Shown here: piece by piece, positions 43,820 to 58,297 of the stretch
How positions within the stretch are numbered: the stretch's first letter is position 1
How the letters are laid out: each line of letters begins with the position of its first letter
Assembly (NCBI GenBank): GCA_022796855.1
Contig: JAAWJM010000002.1
Location: 54,733-118,732, forward strand
Length of the DNA: 64,000 nucleotides
Direction: 5' to 3'
DNA from: Clostridia bacterium
Lineage (GTDB): Bacteria; Bacillota; Clostridia; TANB77; CAG-508
Translations under genes and position numbers: made by a program
The notes under the pieces: generated by a model
Database searches by the model: none
What the model was told of the DNA's origin: nothing
Seen by the model: the letters and a program-made list of their open reading frames with translations, nothing else

Positions 43820-44452
43820 TTATTTTATTTCTTTTTTATCTTCGATTTGTTTTACTTGATTTTGTTCAAGACTACGATTACAACATTCTTCTGGTTGTTT
43901 AAAACTTAAATACCAATTAAATCCATTTCGATTTTTTTGAATCATGTTCATTCTTTCTTCTAAAGCTTGATAGGTTTGTGGCATTGGTACAATCATTGGC
44001 TCATATGGACACCAATTAGCAGGTGTCGCCTCTTTATTACAATCTGCAATTTGTAACGCTTGTAACACTCTTAATATTTCTGGAATACATCTTCCTACAT
44101 TCATTGGGTATACTAAGATTGCTCTTACAATTCCTTTATCGTCAATAATAAATACATTTCTTACGGTTTCTGTATTACTAATGTCATTTGCAATCATACC
44201 ATATTTTCTAGCAATCGTTCCATTTCGATCTGCAATAATTGGAAATGGTACTCGAATTCCTGTTTTACAGTAAATATCATATAACCATGCTAAATGAGAA
44301 GCATTACTGTCTATACTAAGCCCCAACAAACAAGCATTTTGCTGTTTGAAATATGTATCCGCTTTACTAAATGCAATCATTTCCGTGGTACACACTGGGG
44401 TTACTCTATCTTCACTTTTCAAACTTTTTTGGAAGAATAAAAAAATTTGCAT
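43820..44452 (-). pseudogene. Peroxiredoxin (AhpC/Prx6 type) lacking its N-terminus
   Basis: A thiol peroxidase cut by a mobile element. From TPVCTTEMIAFSKA onward the sequence is normal: the peroxidatic cysteine, LGLSIDSNASHLAWL, PFPIIADRNGTIARKYGM, RNVFIIDDKGIVRAIL and a C-terminal NWCPYEP with resolving-type cysteines. The 35-40 residues that should precede TPVCTTE (thioredoxin-fold beta strands) are missing; instead MQIFLFFQKSLKSEDRV is encoded by DNA next to a serine recombinase. The missing 5' end was not found in the rest of the window. The remaining frame might be translated but should not fold normally. Confidence 0.8.
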
Positions 44453-44464
44453 TTTTACTCTTCC
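44431..44464. other. 13-bp imperfect dyad at the recombinase 3' end
   Basis: GGAAGAATAAAAA (44431-44443) and TTTTTACTCTTCC (44452-44464) are inverse with one mismatch, 8 bases apart. The dyad covers the recombinase stop codon and abuts the peroxiredoxin junction. It may be the element-side arms of an att site or a terminator. Confidence 0.4.
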
Positions 44465-46170
44465 AATTTTATTGAAATTGTATTTTCAACAAGTTTTGAT
44501 TCTTTATATTTTAATTCATTGTTATCTTTAATAATAAATTTTTCTTTCATATATTCATTTAATTGCAATCTAAAATCTATTTCGTATCTATCATTAAATA
44601 TTCTAACTTCTTTGATTATTTCAGAAAGTAACATCTTTTTTACGTCTAAATCAGCCATTTCAAACTCTTTTCGCCATACTGGTATCCTATCTTTAATTTG
44701 TAATATTTCTTCATCTTGTAATTTTTTTTGATTTATCTTACTTATAATTTCACCCTTTAAAGTAATTAGTTTTAATTTCTTTTCTTCCTTTTCTGTTATT
44801 AGCTCATTTAATAATTCTGCTGTAAAACTACTTTCTCCTGTTAATGTCTTAACAACTTCATCTTTCAGTACATTTATATTAGCTTCTGTTTCTTCAAGCT
44901 CTTTTTCGCATTTCTTTAAATCTTTTTCTTCATTTTCACAACTATTTAATATACCTTTTTTTATTGCTTTTGATAAATCTATCTTTCTTAAACTATCTAA
45001 AAAATCATAAACACTTTTTAATATTAATTCTTCAAGAATTTCTTTCTTTATGTTCTTTTTTTCTAGTCCACAAGTATTAGTAAATCTTGTACTACTACAT
45101 CTGTAATATGAATGTTTTACAATATCACCATATTTATTTTTCTTTTTTGAGCTTGCTGTCGTAAACGCATATCCACATTCACCACACTTTATTATTCCTA
45201 TAAATAATAATTCTGATTTTGTTTGTCTAGGTTTTACATCTTCTTTTTCATTATTATAATTTGATTTATCATTTCGACAATTTCTAATTTTCTTAGCTTC
45301 ATACCATATTTTTTCATCTACTATTGCTAGATCATTAACTCTCTTCTCTGGTAATATCCATGTATCAAATGGTTGTTTTTTTGACGTTGCCACATTTACT
45401 GTTGTCTTTTTTCTATATGCTGGATAGCCCATATATAATGGATTTTCTAGCATTTTTCCAACTGTTGATGTACTCCATAGTTTAGATCTTCTAGGTTTAA
45501 TTTTTTTATCATTAAGATATTTAGCTATTCTACCTATTCCATATCCTTTTTTTACATATAAATTAAATATTTCTTCTACTATTTTAGATTCTGTTTTATT
45601 GATTATAAGTTTCTGTCTTTCCACTCCCTTTTTGGTATATGTTCCACTTTTAATAAAATCATATCCAAAAGGTGCATTTCTTTCTCCTCCATAAGTAAGT
45701 ATTCCTTTTTCTGCCATTTGAACTTGTACTTCTCTTACCCTTATTGAAGTTTTTTCACTTTCGCCTCCTGCTTGCCAATATGTAAGATAATTAATTAATT
45801 TATCGGCTCGATTTTCTATTTTCCTTTGTCCTTCTTTTACAGACCAAACTTCAACCCCTTCATTAATCAACCATTCTACAACAAAAGGCGTTTCTTCTTC
45901 TCTTCTTCCAATTCTATCAAACATAAAAACAAGTAATATATCTATTTCTTTATTTAATACATCTCTTTTTATGTCTTGTAAAACATCTCTTTTAGACTCA
46001 CTCAGTTTATATCCAGATACTCCTAATTCCTTATATTCTTTTGTAAATTTCCAATTGTTGTGTGATTTTATAAAATCTTTACATGATATTCTTTGCATCG
46101 GAATATCATTTTCTTCAACTTGTTTTAAGGTTGAAACCCTATACAAGCATCCAACTTTTTTCATATCCAT
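44455..46170 (-). CDS. Large serine recombinase B
   Basis: 571 residues. Resolvase domain with nucleophile in GCLYRVSTLKQ (about residue 12), FMFDRIGRREEE (about 82) and a recombinase domain (APFGYDF, GYGIGRIAKYL, STSTVGKMLENPLY). A zinc ribbon follows (CGECGYAF about 345 and later CGLEK), then a coiled coil and a beta-rich tail. It starts 5 bases after the stop of recombinase A and is its paralogue over the catalytic domain, so the pair is an operon. It ends at the element boundary. Confidence 0.92.
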   Translation of the reverse strand: MDMKKVGCLYRVSTLKQVEENDIPMQRISCKDFIKSHNNWKFTKEYKELGVSGYKLSESKRDVLQDIKRDVLNKEIDILLVFMFDRIGRREEETPFVVEWLINEGVEVWSVKEGQRKIENRADKLINYLTYWQAGGESEKTSIRVREVQVQMAEKGILTYGGERNAPFGYDFIKSGTYTKKGVERQKLIINKTESKIVEEIFNLYVKKGYGIGRIAKYLNDKKIKPRRSKLWSTSTVGKMLENPLYMGYPAYRKKTTVNVATSKKQPFDTWILPEKRVNDLAIVDEKIWYEAKKIRNCRNDKSNYNNEKEDVKPRQTKSELLFIGIIKCGECGYAFTTASSKKKNKYGDIVKHSYYRCSSTRFTNTCGLEKKNIKKEILEELILKSVYDFLDSLRKIDLSKAIKKGILNSCENEEKDLKKCEKELEETEANINVLKDEVVKTLTGESSFTAELLNELITEKEEKKLKLITLKGEIISKINQKKLQDEEILQIKDRIPVWRKEFEMADLDVKKMLLSEIIKEVRIFNDRYEIDFRLQLNEYMKEKFIIKDNNELKYKESKLVENTISIKLEE

Positions 46171-46175
46171 AAATG

Positions 46176-47720
46176 TTAAACTTTTTCCTTTACAAGTATC
46201 ATAGATATTGGATATTTAACTTTTATTTCTACTTTATCATTGTACAAATATATCTGTTCTATCAGTTTATCTAAAATTTGTCTTTTTATTTCTAAAGGTG
46301 CTTTTTCAAATTCTTTACTCCATGTAGGGATGTATTCTTTTAAGCTATTAATTTCTTGATTATTAAGATTAATTTCTTCTTTTATTGTTGTTAGCTGTTC
46401 GTTTAACTTATTTAACTTATTCATTTCATCATTAAATTCTTGACTTATTGCTTTATTTCGTTCTTTCTCCCCTGACATAAGAGCTGAAACAATATCTGTT
46501 TTTAACTCTATAAGCCTATTTTCAGAATAGCTAATTTTTTTATTTAATATTCTAATTTTTTCCTCTCTTCTTTTTATCCTCTTTACCCTTTTTACTATTG
46601 CATTTTTAAAATCAATTTTTTTATATGTGTCTAAATATTTTTTTACTTCATTACTTACTATTGTTTCTAAAATATCAACTCTATAATTTCTATGATATTT
46701 ACAATCACCAGTTTTTTGCTTACCCTTACACAGCATATAACAATATTTTGTCCTTCCTTTAGGTACAATATGGTTGTTGCAATAACCACATCTAGTATAT
46801 CCTGATAATAATCTTAGAAGTCTACTTCCTTTCCTACTTCTGCTATCTATTAATTCATTTGCAGTTTGCCATAATTCTTCTGAAACAATTATAATATCTG
46901 GATTTTGTTTGTCAGCAATAATCCAAGTGTCTTTGCTTTTTCTAATATTTCCATCTCTATTTCGCCTTCTTTTTCCAAATGATACATAGCCTTTGTAAAT
47001 AGGATTTCTGACAATTTCTAAAATTATATTTGAATCCCATAAGCAATTTTCTTTTCTTCTTTTAATTCCTTTTCTATTTAGGTAAATTGCCACTTTATCA
47101 GTTCCATATTCTTTTATAGCAATAAGCTCATAAATTTGTCTTATGATTTCTGCTTCTTCTTCATATATAATAGGTATTTTTCTTTGTTTTCCTATTTTAC
47201 TATACAAATCACTATCAATCATTTTATATCCATATGGAGCATAATTACCAAGATAAATTCCTTTTTTAGTTAATCGTATTTTTTCCTCTTTAGATCTAAC
47301 TGATATTTTTTCGCTTTCTCCTTCAGCTTGCCAATATGTAATATAGTTTATTAATTTGTCATAATTGTCCTTTATTTCTCTTTGCCCTTCATTAACAGAC
47401 CATACCTCAATTCCTTGGTCAATTAGCCATTTAACAACAAATGGTGTTTCATCTTCTCGACGTCCTATTCTGTCAAATAAAAAAACTAATAGAACATCAA
47501 TCTCTTTATTGCATACATCCTTTTTTATTGTTTGTAAAACATCTCTTTCTTTTTCTCCTAGCTTATATCCTGAAACACCTAATTCTGTATATTCCTTTGT
47601 TAGTATCCAATCATTTTTTGTTTTTATAAATTTTCTACAAGCCTTTTTCTGTACAGGAATATCGTTGTTATATGTTTGCTTTTTAGTAGAAACTCTATAT
47701 AAGCATCCAATTCTCTTCAT
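46176..47720 (-). CDS. Large serine recombinase A
   Basis: 514 residues. Catalytic domain GCLYRVSTKKQTYNND, LGVSGYKLGEKERDVL, FLFDRIGRRED; recombinase domain APYGYKM, IRQIYELIAIKEYGTDKV, NIILEIVRNPIYKGYV; zinc ribbon CGYCNNHIVPKG with CK; coiled coil (about 385-460). The first 130 residues closely follow recombinase B, with more divergence after it. Strong RBS AAGGAGG. Tandem recombinases occur in some Clostridia elements and in ccrAB of SCCmec, where both proteins are needed; whether these cooperate is inference. Confidence 0.92.
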   Translation of the reverse strand: MKRIGCLYRVSTKKQTYNNDIPVQKKACRKFIKTKNDWILTKEYTELGVSGYKLGEKERDVLQTIKKDVCNKEIDVLLVFLFDRIGRREDETPFVVKWLIDQGIEVWSVNEGQREIKDNYDKLINYITYWQAEGESEKISVRSKEEKIRLTKKGIYLGNYAPYGYKMIDSDLYSKIGKQRKIPIIYEEEAEIIRQIYELIAIKEYGTDKVAIYLNRKGIKRRKENCLWDSNIILEIVRNPIYKGYVSFGKRRRNRDGNIRKSKDTWIIADKQNPDIIIVSEELWQTANELIDSRSRKGSRLLRLLSGYTRCGYCNNHIVPKGRTKYCYMLCKGKQKTGDCKYHRNYRVDILETIVSNEVKKYLDTYKKIDFKNAIVKRVKRIKRREEKIRILNKKISYSENRLIELKTDIVSALMSGEKERNKAISQEFNDEMNKLNKLNEQLTTIKEEINLNNQEINSLKEYIPTWSKEFEKAPLEIKRQILDKLIEQIYLYNDKVEIKVKYPISMILVKEKV

Positions 47721-51093: not shown

Positions 51094-51783
51094 TTAATTT
51101 CCAACATAATATTTTACCATTGCGATAACATTTTTACTGCTTGGCTTATCACATTCTCCTAGTCTTAATATTCTTCTTGTTCTTTCTTTATTAGTATATT
51201 TCCACATGTTATTGATTGCTGTATTAATGTCTGATTTTATGGTATTCATATTTTCTCCCTTTGCTTTTGCTATTTCATTGTAGATATTTTTTACATTGTC
51301 TTCTTTTTTAATAATTGAGTATAGTATACAATCATTAATCAGCTTAGTCCCCTTTAAAGAATATGTAAAACCTAGTCTAAAAAGTATTTCTATTATTTTT
51401 TCTTCAGTATTCTTGTTTGATATTTCTTCTACTATTCTTTCTAATTCTCTTGTTATCTCTTCTACTGGTGTTAGTTTAGAGAAAAACCTATCAACACATT
51501 TGTACTTTATAGCTAAGGACATTTCTTCTACTGCACCTGAATATATGAATATCTTAGCTTTTATCTTTTTGTCTACTTCAATTTCTTCTAAGATTTCAAG
51601 TCCATTTTTATCCGGCAACTTTAGATCAAGTATTACTACATCTGGTTTTATTTCTTTTATTTTTTGATACACATTAGTTCCTTCATTTAATATTCCGACA
51701 CATCTTACATTTTTGGTATTAATCTTGTTTGCCAGATATATACTTATTTGGACATCATCTTCCACAATAAGAACATTTAGCAA
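51094..51783 (-). CDS. Spo0A-like response regulator 1
   Basis: 229 residues. Receiver domain (1-120) complete: acidic pair VEDD, phosphoacceptor in VVILDLKLPDKNG (about residue 52), serine in IYSGA and lysine in FFSKLTP. The C-terminal domain (about 130-225) follows the Spo0A DNA-binding layout: LGFTYSLKGTKLINDCILYS, the AKAKGENMNTIKSDINTAIN region and KPSSKNVIAMVKYYV at the end. It is not the cell's master Spo0A (too divergent). No cognate kinase is near, so it may draw on the host phosphorelay; this is inference. Confidence 0.8.
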   Translation of the reverse strand: MLNVLIVEDDVQISIYLANKINTKNVRCVGILNEGTNVYQKIKEIKPDVVILDLKLPDKNGLEILEEIEVDKKIKAKIFIYSGAVEEMSLAIKYKCVDRFFSKLTPVEEITRELERIVEEISNKNTEEKIIEILFRLGFTYSLKGTKLINDCILYSIIKKEDNVKNIYNEIAKAKGENMNTIKSDINTAINNMWKYTNKERTRRILRLGECDKPSSKNVIAMVKYYVGN

Positions 51784-51857: not shown

Positions 51858-52754
51858 TTAATTGCGACTTTCGGGCTTATTTTTTCTATACTCTTCTCCT
51901 CCTGGATGAGTATAAATATCTGTTGCATTAGATGAATGACCTAAAAATTTTTTCAACATTAAATCAGAATAACCTTCTTCATATTTTTTTGTACCAGAAT
52001 CATGTCTCATGATATGTGGATTTATCTTATCTTCATTTACCTTAATGCAATATTTAGCCAAAATATTATTTATTGTGGTTCTCGCCATAGGTTGATTGGT
52101 ATTAGCTGTTTTATTACTTACAAAGAGATATTTATTTTCTTTACCATTTAGTAGTTTTTCTCTTTCTGGCAAATAATCATTAATTGCATCAAATATAATT
52201 TGCTCCATAAAAATGCTTCTAATTTTATTCCCCTTCCCCAAAATATGAATTGAATACATATTAAAATCTATATCCCTTTCTAATTGCAATCCAATCAGTT
52301 CCGATACTCTTAGTCCCCCCTCATCACATAAAACAAACATTGTATAATCTCTCTTATTTTCTCTTCCAGCTTTCAATCTAACCTTTTTTATCGTTTCTTT
52401 AGGTAACATCTGCGAAGTAATTATAGGTCTTTCGATTTTATAAAAATCTTTCTTCTTTATGACTTTTGATCTATTTTTCTTAATCTCATTTTCTATTAAA
52501 AAATCTTCATATACTGACAACGAGGAAGTCTTGCGATTTATTGTCGCAAATTTATATTGTAGGTCATCAATCATATGTTTTTTGTATTCAATATAATCTG
52601 CATTGGAAAACTCTATAATCGTTTCTCCAAAATGTTCTTTGAAATATTTTAAAAACTGTTCCACGTCTTTCATATAAGCATTAATTGTATTTCTTTCTCC
52701 TGAAGTATCATAATTCTCCTCTAAATATTTTTTAAATTGTTCTAATATCTCCAT
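51858..52754 (-). CDS. Tyrosine recombinase (Xer/phage integrase family)
   Basis: 298 residues with an N-terminal SAM-like core-binding domain (1-110) and the catalytic domain. Catalytic set: Arg in GGLRVSELIGL (about 150), Lys in GKGNKIR (about 175), HIMRHD (His-x-x-Arg, about 247), His in LGHSS (about 270) and Tyr in ATDIYTHPG (about 279). Size and layout are those of XerC/D-type enzymes. RBS GGAGTG. The 130 bases upstream hold four copies of a 13-bp motif that look like its target sites. It is distinct from the two serine recombinases and may invert or resolve DNA. Confidence 0.93.
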   Translation of the reverse strand: MEILEQFKKYLEENYDTSGERNTINAYMKDVEQFLKYFKEHFGETIIEFSNADYIEYKKHMIDDLQYKFATINRKTSSLSVYEDFLIENEIKKNRSKVIKKKDFYKIERPIITSQMLPKETIKKVRLKAGRENKRDYTMFVLCDEGGLRVSELIGLQLERDIDFNMYSIHILGKGNKIRSIFMEQIIFDAINDYLPEREKLLNGKENKYLFVSNKTANTNQPMARTTINNILAKYCIKVNEDKINPHIMRHDSGTKKYEEGYSDLMLKKFLGHSSNATDIYTHPGGEEYRKNKPESRN

Positions 52755-52770
52755 TTTTTCACTCCTTTAT

Positions 52771-52879
52771 TTATGTAGTATTTTTTTATAACCATTATTG
52801 TTATTTATGTAGTATTTTTTGTTTGGTTATTATGCTTTTCGTTTGAAAAATACTACATAAGTGTAATTATGTAGTATTT
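52771..52879. repeat. Four copies of TTATGTAGTATTT, including a loxP-like 13-6-13 site
   Basis: Direct copies at 52771-52783 and 52805-52817 (34 bases apart), an inverted copy at 52848-52860 and a direct copy at 52867-52879. The last two form a perfect 13-bp inverted repeat around GTGTAA, the shape of a tyrosine-recombinase crossover site. All lie within 125 bases upstream of the recombinase start. The gap 52755-53138 holds no intact gene. Confidence 0.7.
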
Positions 52880-52956
52880 ATTATAATATTGTTGTTCTAC
52901 TTTATAAAGTTGAGAAAAAATATGAGCTTATTGTAGTAAGCTTTTAAAATTTATGA

Positions 52957-53064
52957 TATATTACTGTAACTTCAATGGGAGCATACTACGTTCAATTTAG
53001 TGGAAGAAATAGTCAAGTATATAATTTTAGCTTAAATTCTAAATGCTTTCTTACTCATATATAA
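52957..53064 (+). pseudogene. Fragment resembling the C-terminus of the 143-residue secreted protein
   Basis: A short frame reads TVTSMGAYYVQFSGRNSQVY then NFSLN. It matches in pattern the end of the secreted protein at 55902 (GGAYYISFGSRKTAYRFNYS). There is no start upstream (a TGA stands at 52954), so it is likely the tail of a decayed paralogue. Confidence 0.4.
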
Positions 53065-53098
53065 TATGATAGCTACTTAAATTCAAATGTCTAATATT

Positions 53099-53138
53099 AA
53101 AGAGCAACTCCTATATAAATTGAAGTTGCTCTTTATCT
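53099..53138. terminator. Bidirectional terminator
   Basis: Perfect 11-bp stem (53099-53109 with 53124-53134) with 14-base loop; T-rich on both outer sides. It ends the minus-strand gene at 53139. Confidence 0.7.
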
Positions 53139-53663
53139 TTATAATATTGCATCAAAGCGTGCTCTTAACTCTATATCACCTTTTATATTACTATATGCTG
53201 AATCTAAAAATTCTTTTAGTATATTGCTTTCTTCTTGTGTTAAATCTTTTTCTTCTAATACATTTAAAACTAATTTGTACAGTTCTTTTTGTGTTTCAGA
53301 TGCTGAGTTATAATATATTATATTTTCATTATCTATTTTTTGCAAAATTAGTTTTAACTCATTAGGATAAAATTTATTTATTATTGAAGTAATTGCATCT
53401 TCTTCTTTTTGAGTTTCTGCTTTAATTTTTTCATTTTCCTCAATTTCTGATAAGGACATTGAAGAATAAACTTCTGGTGTATCTATTCTTCCATTTTCTA
53501 CATCATTTAAAAATTTTTGTTTTCTTTCTAAAAGTATATGCTCCACTTCTTTATCTGAAGGTGCTATGTAAATAGGTGTTCCTAATTTATTTGATGCAAA
53601 AATCACTACTGGAACTAATATTACTATTGCTACTAATAAACCTAAAATTACTTTTTTGTTCAT
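53139..53663 (-). CDS. Hypothetical membrane-anchored protein
   Basis: 174 residues. One N-terminal helix (VILGLLVAIVILVPVVIF, residues 5-22) and an extracellular, acidic, mostly helical domain (KEVEHILLERKQKFLNDVEN to the end). No family recognised. It begins 14 bases after the lectin-amidase stop with RBS AAGGAGG, so they form an operon; it could be an anchor, chaperone or immunity-type partner of the amidase. That pairing is inferred only from position. Confidence 0.65.
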   Translation of the reverse strand: MNKKVILGLLVAIVILVPVVIFASNKLGTPIYIAPSDKEVEHILLERKQKFLNDVENGRIDTPEVYSSMSLSEIEENEKIKAETQKEEDAITSIINKFYPNELKLILQKIDNENIIYYNSASETQKELYKLVLNVLEEKDLTQEESNILKEFLDSAYSNIKGDIELRARFDAIL

Positions 53664-53677
53664 GACATTACCTCCTT

Positions 53678-54883
53678 TTATAGTGTCATTTGAAATAATA
53701 TAAAATAATCATTCGGATTCTCTTTACATATTTGAAGGAAAGGTTTACCAGGTTCTTCGCGTGAATGTCCTGTTACTACATAGCTAGATTTTGCCTCATA
53801 TGTAGTATAACCTGTTATATACATTGTATGTGTAGAATTACCCATAACACCTAAGATATTTTGAGCCTGTTGCATAACATCTCCTTCTTTTATATTAAGA
53901 TTCATCACTTCTTGGGGATGTTCATAAGCATATTTTCCTTGAACTGCATAATAATATCCAACATCTTTCCAATAAGTTCCAAACTCTCTCGCACTAGTCC
54001 ATGGACTTGTCTTTGGTGGGCATAATTCCCATGAATTATCTAATTGTTCTCTGTTAGCAGGTTGTGGATAATTATTATTCTTTCTATATATTTTCCAATC
54101 ATTTTGATAATGCATCCCTCCTGCTAACATACACTGCGAAGCAAAATTTGCACAATCTCCTAAAGGATTAAGATTTGGATAGCACATTACATACTGATTA
54201 TAATTTTGTTTTGCATATTCCACTCCTAAAATAGGATTTTTTGAAACTGGTTCTAGTATCCAATATTCATTGGCATGAGCTTGAAATGTATATTGGTCAA
54301 CATTTTGTCCTTGATTACATGTTGGTCCATTTAAAACAACTACTTTTGAAAAATTACTTGCTTTTGTATATAATATAAACGTAGAATACACCGATAGTCC
54401 TATTTTGAATTTTTGGGCATCTGATCCATTTATTTCACGTATTTGAATATTAGCATAATTTTCACCAGAACCATTATTTACCTCTAAAGCATACCTATAT
54501 GCTCCATTATTTCCTAATCGTGTATATATACAAAATGTTCCATCTCCATTATTCCTTAAATACCATCTTTGGGAATCTGTACCATTAAGTTTATATTGTT
54601 GTACATTTCTTCCATTTTCAGCTATCCCTCCTGAAACATCTAAATACTGTCCTGTGTACATGTTTTTTATAAAAAATTCCTTTCCGCTAATATCTGAATA
54701 TTTTAATGATAATGGTTGAATATTAGATGATTCATATTCCGTTATTGTAGTATCTTCCATTAATAAAATATCATTTACGAAATCACCTGATTTTGCCTTT
54801 ACTGGCATTAAAATTGTTACTAATATCATGAGAAAAATAATAAAACTTGAAATTATACGCTTTTTTTGTTCTTTTACTTTCAT
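53678..54883 (-). CDS. Secreted ricin-type lectin plus amidase domain protein
   Basis: 401 residues. Signal or anchor helix at 10-30 (ISSFIIFLMILVTILMP). Residues about 60-215 form a ricin-B-type beta-trefoil (KEFFIKNMYTGQYLDVSGG; DSQRWYLRNNGDGTFCI; DAQKFKI). Residues about 216-401 resemble the Amidase_6 domain: GVEYAKQNYNQYV, catalytic cysteine in GDCANFASQCMLAGG (about 243) and histidine in STHTMYITGYT (about 352). It should bind sugars and cut an amide bond, perhaps in peptidoglycan of other cells, outside the producer. Co-transcribed with the membrane protein downstream. Confidence 0.85.
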   Translation of the reverse strand: MKVKEQKKRIISSFIIFLMILVTILMPVKAKSGDFVNDILLMEDTTITEYESSNIQPLSLKYSDISGKEFFIKNMYTGQYLDVSGGIAENGRNVQQYKLNGTDSQRWYLRNNGDGTFCIYTRLGNNGAYRYALEVNNGSGENYANIQIREINGSDAQKFKIGLSVYSTFILYTKASNFSKVVVLNGPTCNQGQNVDQYTFQAHANEYWILEPVSKNPILGVEYAKQNYNQYVMCYPNLNPLGDCANFASQCMLAGGMHYQNDWKIYRKNNNYPQPANREQLDNSWELCPPKTSPWTSAREFGTYWKDVGYYYAVQGKYAYEHPQEVMNLNIKEGDVMQQAQNILGVMGNSTHTMYITGYTTYEAKSSYVVTGHSREEPGKPFLQICKENPNDYFILFQMTL

Positions 54884-55025
54884 ATAACCTTCTCCTTTCT
54901 TAATAAATATGGATATTATCCATATAGACCTCCTTTCTAATTAATCTACGTTCTTTTAGAAATTGTTTATTGTTACTTTTATAATATACTATCTTCATAA
55001 ACTTCTATAAAAAGATAACTTCTTT

Positions 55026-55736
55026 TTATAATATTTTATTTAAAACTGTATATACTACTGTCTTTGTCGTTGGTTTCCTGTCATCGTAAAAACTAAAATA
55101 CTCTTTTAGAAATCTAGCTTCACATTTATAATACATTGCTTCTGTTGCATTATTAATATTACACTTTATGTTGTTTATTGTTTTGTGATAAGTTTTTGCG
55201 ACTATTGGATATATATCTCGTTGTAAATTATCTATAAAAAATTTCTGTTTTTGATACATTTGGAATATTACATCAATTAAATATGTAGTTCCTTTATAAT
55301 TTATATCATATCCTATCTTTTCTATTTCACCAACAATTTGTTTTCTTTTGTATAGAAGATTTTTGCTTTCTACTAGTTTTTGTATCCTAGATGTTATCTC
55401 TTCTTTTTGGGTTTTCTTTATAATATAATCAAACACTAATGGATTACCAATTAGTTGTCCCATAGAATATCTATCTTCAGCCATAACAATAACTGATCCT
55501 CTGTATTTATCTTTTTGTACATTAGCTAGTTCCTCTAATACCTTTATTCCGTTAAAAGTTGATAAATCTAATATTACTATGTCAATCTTAGCAGTTTTTA
55601 AAAAATCCAAAGTCTCTTTTTCATTTGTACACATTTTACAGATTCTTATATCTGTACTATCTAAAATATCATTAACTAATCCTTTTAAAAAATTCACATC
55701 ATTACCGGCTATTAATCCTTTAACCAAATTTATCAC
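55026..55736 (-). CDS. Spo0A-like response regulator 2
   Basis: 236 residues. Receiver-like domain with phosphoacceptor in VILDLSTFNG (about residue 57) and lysine in YIIKKTQ, but the N-terminal acidic pair is weakened (IAGNDVNFL), so magnesium binding may be altered. The C-terminal half follows Spo0A: IGYDINYKGTTYLIDVIFQM, YPIVAKTYHKTINNIKCNIN (recognition helix region) and KPTTKTVVYTVLNKIL. It is a distant paralogue of the regulator at 51094. It is divergent to a secreted-protein gene across a 20-bp inverted repeat. Confidence 0.78.
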   Translation of the reverse strand: MINLVKGLIAGNDVNFLKGLVNDILDSTDIRICKMCTNEKETLDFLKTAKIDIVILDLSTFNGIKVLEELANVQKDKYRGSVIVMAEDRYSMGQLIGNPLVFDYIIKKTQKEEITSRIQKLVESKNLLYKRKQIVGEIEKIGYDINYKGTTYLIDVIFQMYQKQKFFIDNLQRDIYPIVAKTYHKTINNIKCNINNATEAMYYKCEARFLKEYFSFYDDRKPTTKTVVYTVLNKIL

Positions 55737-55817
55737 CTCTACTTAATAAGATACCAAAATCTTACAATAAGGTTTCATTTTTATCTTTTTTTATCTTTTT
55801 TATAATTCAACTTTACT

Positions 55818-55845
55818 TTATGTTACTATATCATTAGTAACATAA
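55818..55845. promoter_or_regulatory. Perfect 10-bp inverted repeat in a divergent promoter
   Basis: TTATGTTACT (55818-55827) and AGTAACATAA (55836-55845), 8 bases apart, lie between response regulator 2 and the secreted-protein gene. This is operator-like. It is not the classic 0A box. Confidence 0.5.
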
Positions 55846-55901
55846 TTTCTTACCAGTAGTAATAGGAATTAGATTAGTGAGCATTAAAAAGGAGGCATCT
55901 T

Positions 55902-56333
55902 ATGAAACTACTGAAAAAAATACCTAAAAGAGCAACTGCATTTGTTTTGGCTATGGCATTGTTGTTTGGCATGAACACCATGTCAGCATTTGCTGCCACA
56001 CCTGACCCTGGCATAAGTCCTCAGACGGTTATTACTCCGTGGCATGGACCTATTACTGTTCAGGGTAATTCGCAAAAGACTTCTGGTATTGGTGTGAGAC
56101 CTGGTGAAACAATTCGGTTAGATTTAACTATTTTGGGAATTGCTGATTATGTGGATTACTCTCCTTTGCAGGTTTCTTTGTGTAAGCGAGATGGAACCCT
56201 TGTTGAGTTGATTACGTATTCTGCAACTGGCAGTTATTCTCATACCTTTACGGCTGTAGATGGTGGAGCATACTATATTTCCTTTGGTAGCCGTAAAACA
56301 GCTTACCGTTTCAACTATTCTGTAACTTTCTAA
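55902..56333 (+). CDS. Secreted beta-rich protein of 143 residues
   Basis: Signal peptide at 1-32 with AxA cleavage (ATAFVLAMALLFGMNTMSAF then AAT). The mature part (about 110 residues) is beta-rich: GIGVRPGETIRLDLTILG, SPLQVSLCKRDGTLVEL, GGAYYISFGSRKTAYRF. It resembles small exported proteins of Firmicutes with no assigned role. RBS AAAGGAGG. Its codon use is clearly richer in G+C than its neighbours, including an in-frame CGG arginine, so it arrived separately. A decayed relative lies at 52957. Confidence 0.8.
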   Translation: MKLLKKIPKRATAFVLAMALLFGMNTMSAFAATPDPGISPQTVITPWHGPITVQGNSQKTSGIGVRPGETIRLDLTILGIADYVDYSPLQVSLCKRDGTLVELITYSATGSYSHTFTAVDGGAYYISFGSRKTAYRFNYSVTF

Positions 56334-56367
56334 CTAACAATTAACTCACTAATCTTAATTCCATACG

Positions 56368-56401
56368 AAATGGTTGGCTTATTACGGCCAACCATTTTCT
56401 T
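56368..56401. terminator. Terminator between convergent genes
   Basis: Perfect 11-bp stem (56368-56378 with 56387-56397) followed by TCTT on plus; it ends the secreted-protein transcript and abuts the stop of the DUF4179 gene. Confidence 0.7.
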
Positions 56402-57515
56402 AAATACATTTTAATATCTCTATCTCGTTAATACCTCTAATTATAATTTTTAATTCATCTGATACATTATTTCTATTAACATCAAAATTCACTTTTACTA
56501 TCCTATTGTCTATTATGTCTAATGTTGTTGGATTAATATAATATTTATGCTTCTTATCAAAAATTTGTATACTCCCTAAATCTGACATATCAATTATTTG
56601 TGTTAAATTTTGATTTCCTACGTATTCTATTTTTAATTGTAACTGTAAATTACTCAATTCTGCTTCCATTACTCTAAATTCTTGTTTATTATGTTCTAAA
56701 TCTTTTGTTACATATCTCGTTATTTCTCTATTTACAAGTTTTGAATTTAAATCTATTTCAAAATTCCATTTACCTTGTATTCGTTTTACTATGTTTTGAC
56801 GGTTTTTTAATTCAATATCTTCTAATTGAATATATATTTTTTTACTTTTAGGAAACTTTTTAAAATCTATACCTGAACCTAATACTATAGTTCTTTTTAA
56901 TCTATTATCTTCTATGTTTCGATATGTCGATTGATAATTGCCTGTTAATACCTTTGTTGTTTCTTCTAGTGTTTCTAATTCTTCTATTATCATATTTGTA
57001 CTTTCACCATATTTTAACAAATCTTTATAACTACGCCTTTCAGCTTTCTTTGACGAATAAGCCATATTACTTGGTTCATTACTATTTTTAAATATAATAT
57101 TGTTTTGTTCATCTTTTATTAAGATTTTAGACTCAGCTTGTGTAATCGGTTCTGTGTATACATATTCTACGTCTAACTGTATAGTAAAATCATCCATACC
57201 AATACTATTAATTCTAACTGAAAGATTATTTATTGTTTGGTATTCATTTTCGACTATTTGAATATATTCATTATTTCTTTCATCACTAGTATTCTTTTTG
57301 AACATATTACTAATCATTTCGGAAATTTGTCTTCCAAATGTTATTCCTCCAATTGTGCTTATGCATAAAATTATAATTGCTACCTTTTTTAAGATATTAT
57401 ATTGATTGGTTCTTGTATAATTTTTAAACGTATTTCTTATTGTTTCTTCGTATTTAGGTGGCTCAATTATCTTTTTATTGACAACCTCTAATATCTTTTT
57501 ATCTAATTCATCCAT
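56400..57515 (-). CDS. DUF4179-type membrane protein, probable anti-sigma factor
   Basis: 371 residues. A short cytoplasmic N-terminus (about 45 residues, MDELDKKILEVVNKK) precedes one membrane helix (VAIIILCISTIGGITFG, about 48-64) and a large external beta-rich domain with DUF4179-like SIGMDDFTIQLDVEYV. Such genes follow ECF sigma genes and are thought to hold the sigma factor at the membrane. The start at 57515 overlaps the sigma gene by 8 bases and follows GAGGAGGTG, so expression is coupled. Confidence 0.78.
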   Translation of the reverse strand: MDELDKKILEVVNKKIIEPPKYEETIRNTFKNYTRTNQYNILKKVAIIILCISTIGGITFGRQISEMISNMFKKNTSDERNNEYIQIVENEYQTINNLSVRINSIGMDDFTIQLDVEYVYTEPITQAESKILIKDEQNNIIFKNSNEPSNMAYSSKKAERRSYKDLLKYGESTNMIIEELETLEETTKVLTGNYQSTYRNIEDNRLKRTIVLGSGIDFKKFPKSKKIYIQLEDIELKNRQNIVKRIQGKWNFEIDLNSKLVNREITRYVTKDLEHNKQEFRVMEAELSNLQLQLKIEYVGNQNLTQIIDMSDLGSIQIFDKKHKYYINPTTLDIIDNRIVKVNFDVNRNNVSDELKIIIRGINEIEILKCI

Positions 57516-58050
57516 TTTTTTGCACCTCCTCATATAATTTCTTTATTTTAATCTTAGCTCTACTTAGTCTTGTCTTTATAGTATTTTCATTTGTATTCAA
57601 TATCTTACTAATTTCTTTTTGTGTAAATCTTTCTTGATATAATAAAATTATTATAATTCTTTCTTCATAACGCAAGTTTTGTATCAATTTGTAAAAGTCA
57701 ATTGTATTTTCTATTTCTGTAATATCATTACTCTCTTCTTTATACATTTCGTAATATCCTTCTAAATCATAATCTTCTGTAATCTCCTTATATTTATGCT
57801 TTCTATTATAGATTTTATTGCAATTACTAATTAAAATTTTTATAATCCACGCTTTAAATTTAGATGGATCTTTTAGCTTCTTCAAGTATTTGTATGACAT
57901 TATCATTGTTTCTTGTATAGCATCATCAACATCATCATCATTGATAAATCGTGTTTTTGCTATCTTATACAAATCATTCTTCATATTTAGTATTAATTGT
58001 GTATATGCCACTACATCTCCTTCTTTAGCTTTTATTATTATTTCTTCCAT
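57508..58050 (-). CDS. ECF-type RNA polymerase sigma factor
   Basis: 180 residues. Region 2 (about 10-80): AYTQLILNMKNDLYKIA, DDAIQETMIMSYKYLKKLKD and FKAWIIKILISNC. Region 4 (about 120-175): LIQNLRYEERIIIILLYQER, FTQKEISKILNTNENTIKTR and LSRAKIKIKKL. It lacks other regions, as is normal for group 4. It likely directs its own operon and the genes around it. Downstream is the overlapping DUF4179 gene. Confidence 0.92.
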   Translation of the reverse strand: MEEIIIKAKEGDVVAYTQLILNMKNDLYKIAKTRFINDDDVDDAIQETMIMSYKYLKKLKDPSKFKAWIIKILISNCNKIYNRKHKYKEITEDYDLEGYYEMYKEESNDITEIENTIDFYKLIQNLRYEERIIIILLYQERFTQKEISKILNTNENTIKTRLSRAKIKIKKLYEEVQKNG

Positions 58051-58297
58051 TTTTCTCCCCCTATGTATTACACCTTATACTTATATGATACTTAATTCAA
58101 ATAAAAAAGTTTCGCTAACTTAATTTTTATTTTATTTTTTTATGTGTTCTATGTAATTATTTATTGGTTAAAAGAATAACATTTGCCCTAAAACAAATGT
58201 TATTAAAACTTTATTCTATACTTTTATTCTCTATTACTGAATATATTTTTACTCCAATGCTATAAAAAACATATGCTACTACCCTATTCTTTTCCAT

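Follow-up and report, generated by a model that had tools for sequence, protein, structure and literature searches.

A tyrosine recombinase gene of a Clostridia bacterium and the conserved four-copy repeat array upstream of it: a candidate TnpI/irs-like resolution module on a mobile element

A tyrosine recombinase gene and the four-copy array of a 13-bp motif in front of it, located in a window of 64,000 nucleotides (the whole stretch of DNA that was analysed) from a gut Clostridia bacterium, quite probably form a TnpI/irs-like, autoregulated single-recombinase resolution module on a mobile element. This reading is based on the layout and spacing of the array, its conservation among relatives, the covariation of its letters with the recombinase, the single core in the genome, and the presence of such arrays on plasmids and integrative elements. 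Strand exchange by tyrosine recombinases occurs at a core in which two inverted arms flank a centre of 6-8 bp. In the proposed mechanism, the recombinase would bind all four 13-bp motifs, and strand exchange would take place at the 32-bp core formed by two of them (52848-52879, the predicted site of cleavage), with the asymmetric 6-bp centre giving the core a direction. The other two copies, DR1 and DR2, would serve as accessory binding sites, giving the reaction a selectivity for pairs of sites in direct repeat on a single molecule. Such a reaction would serve to resolve the mobile element where it is present as dimers, tandem copies or cointegrates, and the bound recombinase would also repress its own gene. 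The recombinase and the parts of the array are as follows.

51858-52754, minus strand: XerC/D-like tyrosine recombinase, 298 aa (Pfam PF00589/PF02899)
52771-52783, plus strand: copy 1 of TTATGTAGTATTT, exact match; on the minus strand the accessory direct copy DR2 (AAATACTACATAA), starting 34 bp after the start of DR1 and ending 16 bp before the start codon
52805-52817, plus strand: copy 2 of TTATGTAGTATTT, exact match; on the minus strand the accessory direct copy DR1 (AAATACTACATAA), starting 62 bp after the start of the core left arm
52848-52860, minus strand: copy 3 of TTATGTAGTATTT, exact match; the core right arm, which reads TTATGTAGTATTT in gene orientation
52861-52866, minus strand: core central region, 6 bp, TTACAC in gene orientation, asymmetric
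52867-52879, plus strand: copy 4 of TTATGTAGTATTT, exact match; on the minus strand the core left arm, which reads AAATACTACATAA in gene orientation

In gene orientation (minus strand), the order is thus core left arm, centre, right arm, DR1, DR2, 16 bp and the ATG at 52754, and DR2 starts 96 bp after the start of the core left arm. An earlier, sequence-only reading of this DNA had described a 13-bp motif occurring four times in 110 bases, with two copies in a perfect inverted repeat around a 6-base centre (52848-52860 and 52867-52879), two direct copies 34 bases apart from start to start (52771 and 52805), and all of them in the promoter region of the recombinase. This description was confirmed: four exact copies of TTATGTAGTATTT lie within 109 bases (52771-52879), between the ATG and a point 125 bp upstream of it. 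The inverted pair had been termed “loxP-like”, but the core is better called dif-like, with its 6-bp centre flanked by CATAA and TTATG. The four repeats are real and not a product of chance. The window locus obtained 72 of 72 in a search for the best-scoring array of four parts, compared to a maximum of 53 among 300 shuffles of the region that preserved dinucleotides, and the scores of two unrelated tyrosine recombinases from this genome fell within those of their own shuffles. A whole-genome motif search, a check that the earlier reading had proposed, found no further exact copy of TTATGTAGTATTT in 1,808,062 bases, and one-mismatch matches genome-wide stayed at the level of a reversed-pattern control. 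Similarly, a whole-genome search for core-like sites found no second core elsewhere.

The recombinase consists of two domains recognized by Pfam, a SAM-like core-binding domain and a catalytic domain (Phage_integrase). A family alignment shows that the catalytic residues R149, K174, H247, R250, H273 and Y281 are present, and R149, K174, R250 and Y281 are among the invariant columns. Judged by its domains and residues, the protein is a simple, Xer-like tyrosine recombinase without an arm-binding domain, as it combines a core-binding and a catalytic domain with the catalytic R-K-H-R-H/W-Y set that characterizes the class of simple tyrosine recombinases (as defined in PMC8138268). Its closest solved structures by sequence are the archaeal XerC-like/XerA proteins and E. 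coli XerD. It scores 126 and 123 bits against the NCBIfam XerC and XerD models, far below both curated equivalog cut-offs (335 and 330, respectively), and consequently is not assigned to the XerC/XerD recombinases of chromosome dimer resolution.

Relatives were gathered at each rank from the family of the window genome up to its phylum, as well as from plasmids. The sequence-only reading had named related recombinases lacking the motif as evidence against its interpretation; instead, all close relatives have the array, with different letters. The same layout is found upstream of the recombinase in every clade member for which upstream DNA is available (35 loci, 26 distinct arrays), at 32-84% protein identity. 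The spacing is nearly invariant: the start of the core left arm and the start of DR1 are 62 bp apart in 34 of the 35 loci (61 bp in L040), and DR1 and DR2 are 34 bp apart except in five loci, where the distance is 36 bp (two Bacillaceae plasmids, L024, L052 and L033). The orientation of the array is identical in all 35 loci, and an alignment of 21 loci is free of gaps across the array. Conservation is concentrated in the motifs, with a mean top-base frequency in motif columns versus the columns between motifs of 0.96 versus 0.72 in clade A, and 0.92 versus 0.63 in clade B. The core centre reads CTACAC, ATACAC or TTACAC in 14 of the 26 distinct arrays of the relatives. The array is not confined to integrated elements, as pGEOTH02 and pBM19, circular free-standing 19-kb Bacillaceae plasmids, carry it directly upstream of the recombinase; a further match, L086, resides on a 20-kb contig. 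The contigs of L027, L028, L051 and L119 stop at the array or recombinase or no more than about 300 bp away, a pattern that would be seen if assemblies tended to break there.

Not all related plasmid recombinases have the layout. The four-part array search found no array of such layout at ten more distant plasmid recombinases, indicating that plasmid resolution does not require it. Likewise, there is no such array at a Monoglobus recombinase, a Staphylococcus recombinase, or the two unrelated recombinases of the window genome, and nothing comparable at L060, a Priestia recombinase beside a Tn3 transposase. The more distant recombinase L088, whose gene lies on a complete chromosome, has an upstream inverted pair and direct copies of TTTGCAACAAA in a different geometry. 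Among viral contigs, no relative of the recombinase was found by protein pattern, and a search with two versions of the core gave no match. Contigs from IMG/VR (L120:492-517) harbor a near-perfect symmetric core, CATTCAACATAA-CTGCAC-TTATGTTGAATG, shortly upstream of a tyrosine recombinase open reading frame, with no direct copies seen nearby.

The letters of the motif change along with the recombinase. Different branches have the variants AAATACTACATAA, AAATAATACATAA, AAATTCTACATAA, AAATGTAACATAA, AAATGTTACAGAA, ATATGTnACATAA, AGTTAAACATAA and ATTCAACATAG, and the variant letters are mostly common to all four copies of a locus, with a mean identity between motif copies of 0.91 within a locus versus 0.75 between loci. 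When copies were permuted among loci, the observed within-locus identity was never reached, neither in 5,000 permutations overall nor in 20,000 each inside clade A and inside clade B, a comparison that takes out the effect of shared ancestry only in part. In clade B, the right core arm is often unlike the other three copies (ATGATAC versus GTAAC), making the core asymmetric in this clade. In a maximum-likelihood protein tree, the bearers of the array form one clade (support 98/96), and the nearest protein outside of it is L053, a Thermoanaerobacterium plasmid recombinase, which has no array. The covariation extends across clades whose downstream neighbor genes differ. The simplest reading of these patterns is that one protein, the recombinase, would bind all four copies, with its specificity changing along with them.

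The surroundings of the gene are those of a mobile element, and three neighboring features are relevant.

43820-44452, minus strand: peroxiredoxin gene without its N-terminal part (the AhpC-TSA match starts at profile position 37)
44455-47720, minus strand: two adjacent large serine recombinases, with homologues in L027, L028, L064, L065 and L070
51094-51783, minus strand: response regulator with a Spo0A C-terminal domain, the next gene downstream of the recombinase

The serine recombinase pair likely represents the integrases of the window element, separate from the tyrosine recombinase. The truncated peroxiredoxin gene, the 5' part of which is missing, abuts this pair, and the junction between them near 44452 is likely one end of the element and its attachment site. 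In addition to the array recombinase, relatives have the same serine recombinases or a tyrosine integrase of 450-571 aa. As the elements thus possess separate integrases, the array recombinase would not be the integrase, and has another job. The contig of one relative contains genes of a type IV secretion system, a VirD4/TraG coupling protein and a VirB4-like ATPase, at a distance of 35-50 kb, which suggests that this element is conjugative; the window element is integrative and probably conjugative. The remainder of the window contig encodes ArdC-like and methyltransferase-like proteins, and one contig protein clusters with SSB-like proteins of relatives, an affiliation by clustering only. 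The Spo0A-like regulator at 51094-51783 is in an apparent operon with the recombinase. This pair is kept in L025-L028, L066 and L067, and in clade A a Spo0A-like response regulator is usually next after the recombinase gene. In clade B, a DUF6809-like gene precedes the recombinase in 7/7 neighborhoods. The window element has a second Spo0A-like response regulator at 55026-55736, and it is possible that the two regulators link the element to host sporulation or stress signaling.

The position of the array bears on the expression of the recombinase gene. In nearly all clade A and B relatives (including L025, L026, L027, L035-L037, L016, L018 and L021), a conserved AT-rich hairpin (e.g., CTCTATATATAAAATATAGAG), often followed by a T-run, is situated about 20 bp upstream of the core, and in most of them the array lies between this hairpin and the start codon. 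With the hairpin upstream of the core, only the array region is left for a promoter, and autoregulation is therefore expected: any recombinase promoter in or against the array should allow the bound enzyme to repress its own gene. In the window, the hairpin has been lost, and the following element adjoins the core.

52880-52908, minus strand: promoter-like sequence TTTATA-17-TATAAT, a match to the consensus only, abutting the core in a region that is not conserved in relatives

The transcription start predicted from this sequence lies inside the core. Of the three roles that the sequence-only reading had offered, autoregulation fits the position of the array between hairpin and start codon, and the resolution of element multimers fits the conserved layout, the covariation with the recombinase and the presence on circular plasmids. 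The third, an invertible promoter, found no support.

Since conserved layout and covariation are also expected of a pure operator, the array might be only that, with the recombinase or its Spo0A-like partner regulating the recombinase gene and recombination taking place elsewhere. Consistent with this idea, in most relatives of clades A and B the array takes up all the space in which a promoter could lie, its distance to the start codon is 14-19 bp in most relatives, and in the window a promoter-like sequence abuts the core. The inverted pair, however, has the geometry of dif (CATAA-6 bp-TTATG) with an asymmetric, partly conserved centre, the genome contains no other core-like site, and regulation by the partner is at odds with motifs that covary with the recombinase whichever genes lie downstream. 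An array with a purely regulatory function is thus unlikely. A different role for the core, as an attachment site for integration or excision of the element by the recombinase or for its exchange of modules between elements, is brought up by the finding that DNA homology to relatives stops at 52880-52886, at the outer core edge. Beyond this edge, the window has 5.3 kb of cargo (52880-58208; an amidase with a ricin-type lectin domain, the second Spo0A-like regulator, a secreted protein and a sigma-factor-like gene) where L025 has a regulator gene and the hairpin, and upstream neighbors vary among relatives as well. The outer core edge may therefore be a breakpoint of module exchange. Nevertheless, the serine pair or the larger tyrosine integrases are at hand for integration, the single core is without the flanking second core that insertion of a cassette would leave, and the core and gene stay together inside the elements of relatives, so that a function of the core in attachment is very unlikely.

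Recombination among the four copies that inverts or deletes a promoter would require more than copies in both orientations, which the array does have. Inversion of a segment takes two oppositely oriented full sites flanking it, and the genome contains one full core only. The other copies are half-sites and as such unusable for recombination by a tyrosine recombinase, so that DR1 and DR2 cannot recombine with the core. Furthermore, an invertible segment is expected to occur in both orientations, but one orientation and one spacing have been kept in the 35 loci. The inversion or deletion of 52771-52879 that had been envisaged is accordingly improbable in the extreme. Resolution by an autoregulated recombinase is the preferred reading of the array.

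Within the literature searched, irs-type resolution is known only from a few Bacillus Tn3-family transposons (three with TnpI, PMC7157771). The same logic would now extend to free plasmids as well as integrative elements, where a constant scaffold carries at least seven variants of the motif. A broader reading, possible though somewhat less likely than not, is that these loci make up a hitherto undescribed family of irs-type resolution modules, each self-contained, which has spread on integrative elements of gut Clostridia and on plasmids of Bacillaceae. Within such a family, the enzyme and its four-part site would co-evolve, yielding many specificities distinct from one another with a geometry that is constant to the base pair, and the core edge may additionally be a joint for module exchange between elements. 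A literature search, with subscription papers mostly outside its reach, found no published description of such modules on integrative elements or on pBM19. The presence of these modules suggests that the elements need multimer resolution, and the loci provide a natural series of recombinase-site pairs for understanding the recognition of DNA by tyrosine recombinases and the way in which topological selectivity arises from accessory sites.

The closest parallel among described systems is provided by Tn4430 and Tn5401, Tn3-family transposons of Bacillus thuringiensis. The irs of Tn4430 consists of an IR1-IR2 core with DR1 and DR2, located upstream of tnpI and proximal to it; in Tn5401, the irs contains the promoters, which TnpI modulates (PMC7157771). 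The window system shares with these the tyrosine recombinase, the upstream IR1-IR2 core with DR1 and DR2, and the one motif common to all, as judged from published descriptions. It differs in that the window genome has no Tn3-family transposase gene tnpA (a PF01526 search of the whole genome gave no match, and there is no such open reading frame in the window), and in that arrays of the window type reside among other genes, on integrative elements or on free plasmids. As tnpA is absent from the genome, the window system is not classified as a TnpI transposon. In the TnpI system, the core by itself recombines unselectively, and it is the DRs that limit the reaction to resolving direct repeats; by analogy, the same would hold for the window system.

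The XerCD/dif, XerS/difSL, XerH/difH and XerA/dif systems resemble that of the window in their core-binding and catalytic domains, with XerA/XerC-like proteins and XerD as the closest solved structures. The 6-bp centre with inner CATAA/TTATG matches E. coli dif, and TTATGT is also found in B. subtilis dif (PMC3025954). In contrast to the Xer proteins, the window recombinase is encoded by a mobile element and scores far below the XerC/XerD cut-offs, its core arms are symmetric, for one enzyme, and its accessory sites repeat the motif of the enzyme itself instead of being targets of FtsK, PepA or ArgR. In Cre/loxP of phage P1, one recombinase acts on two 13-bp inverted arms, resolving dimers of a mobile replicon. 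The single recombinase and the two 13-bp inverted arms have their counterparts in the window system, but the loxP centre is 8 bp, accessory sites are absent, and the arm sequence is unrelated. The plasmid multimer resolution sites cer and psi combine a core with accessory DNA, through which recombination is limited to direct repeats (PMC5357621), as it would be in the window array. Whereas cer and psi depend on the host XerCD and further host proteins, the window recombinase and its accessory sites are self-contained.
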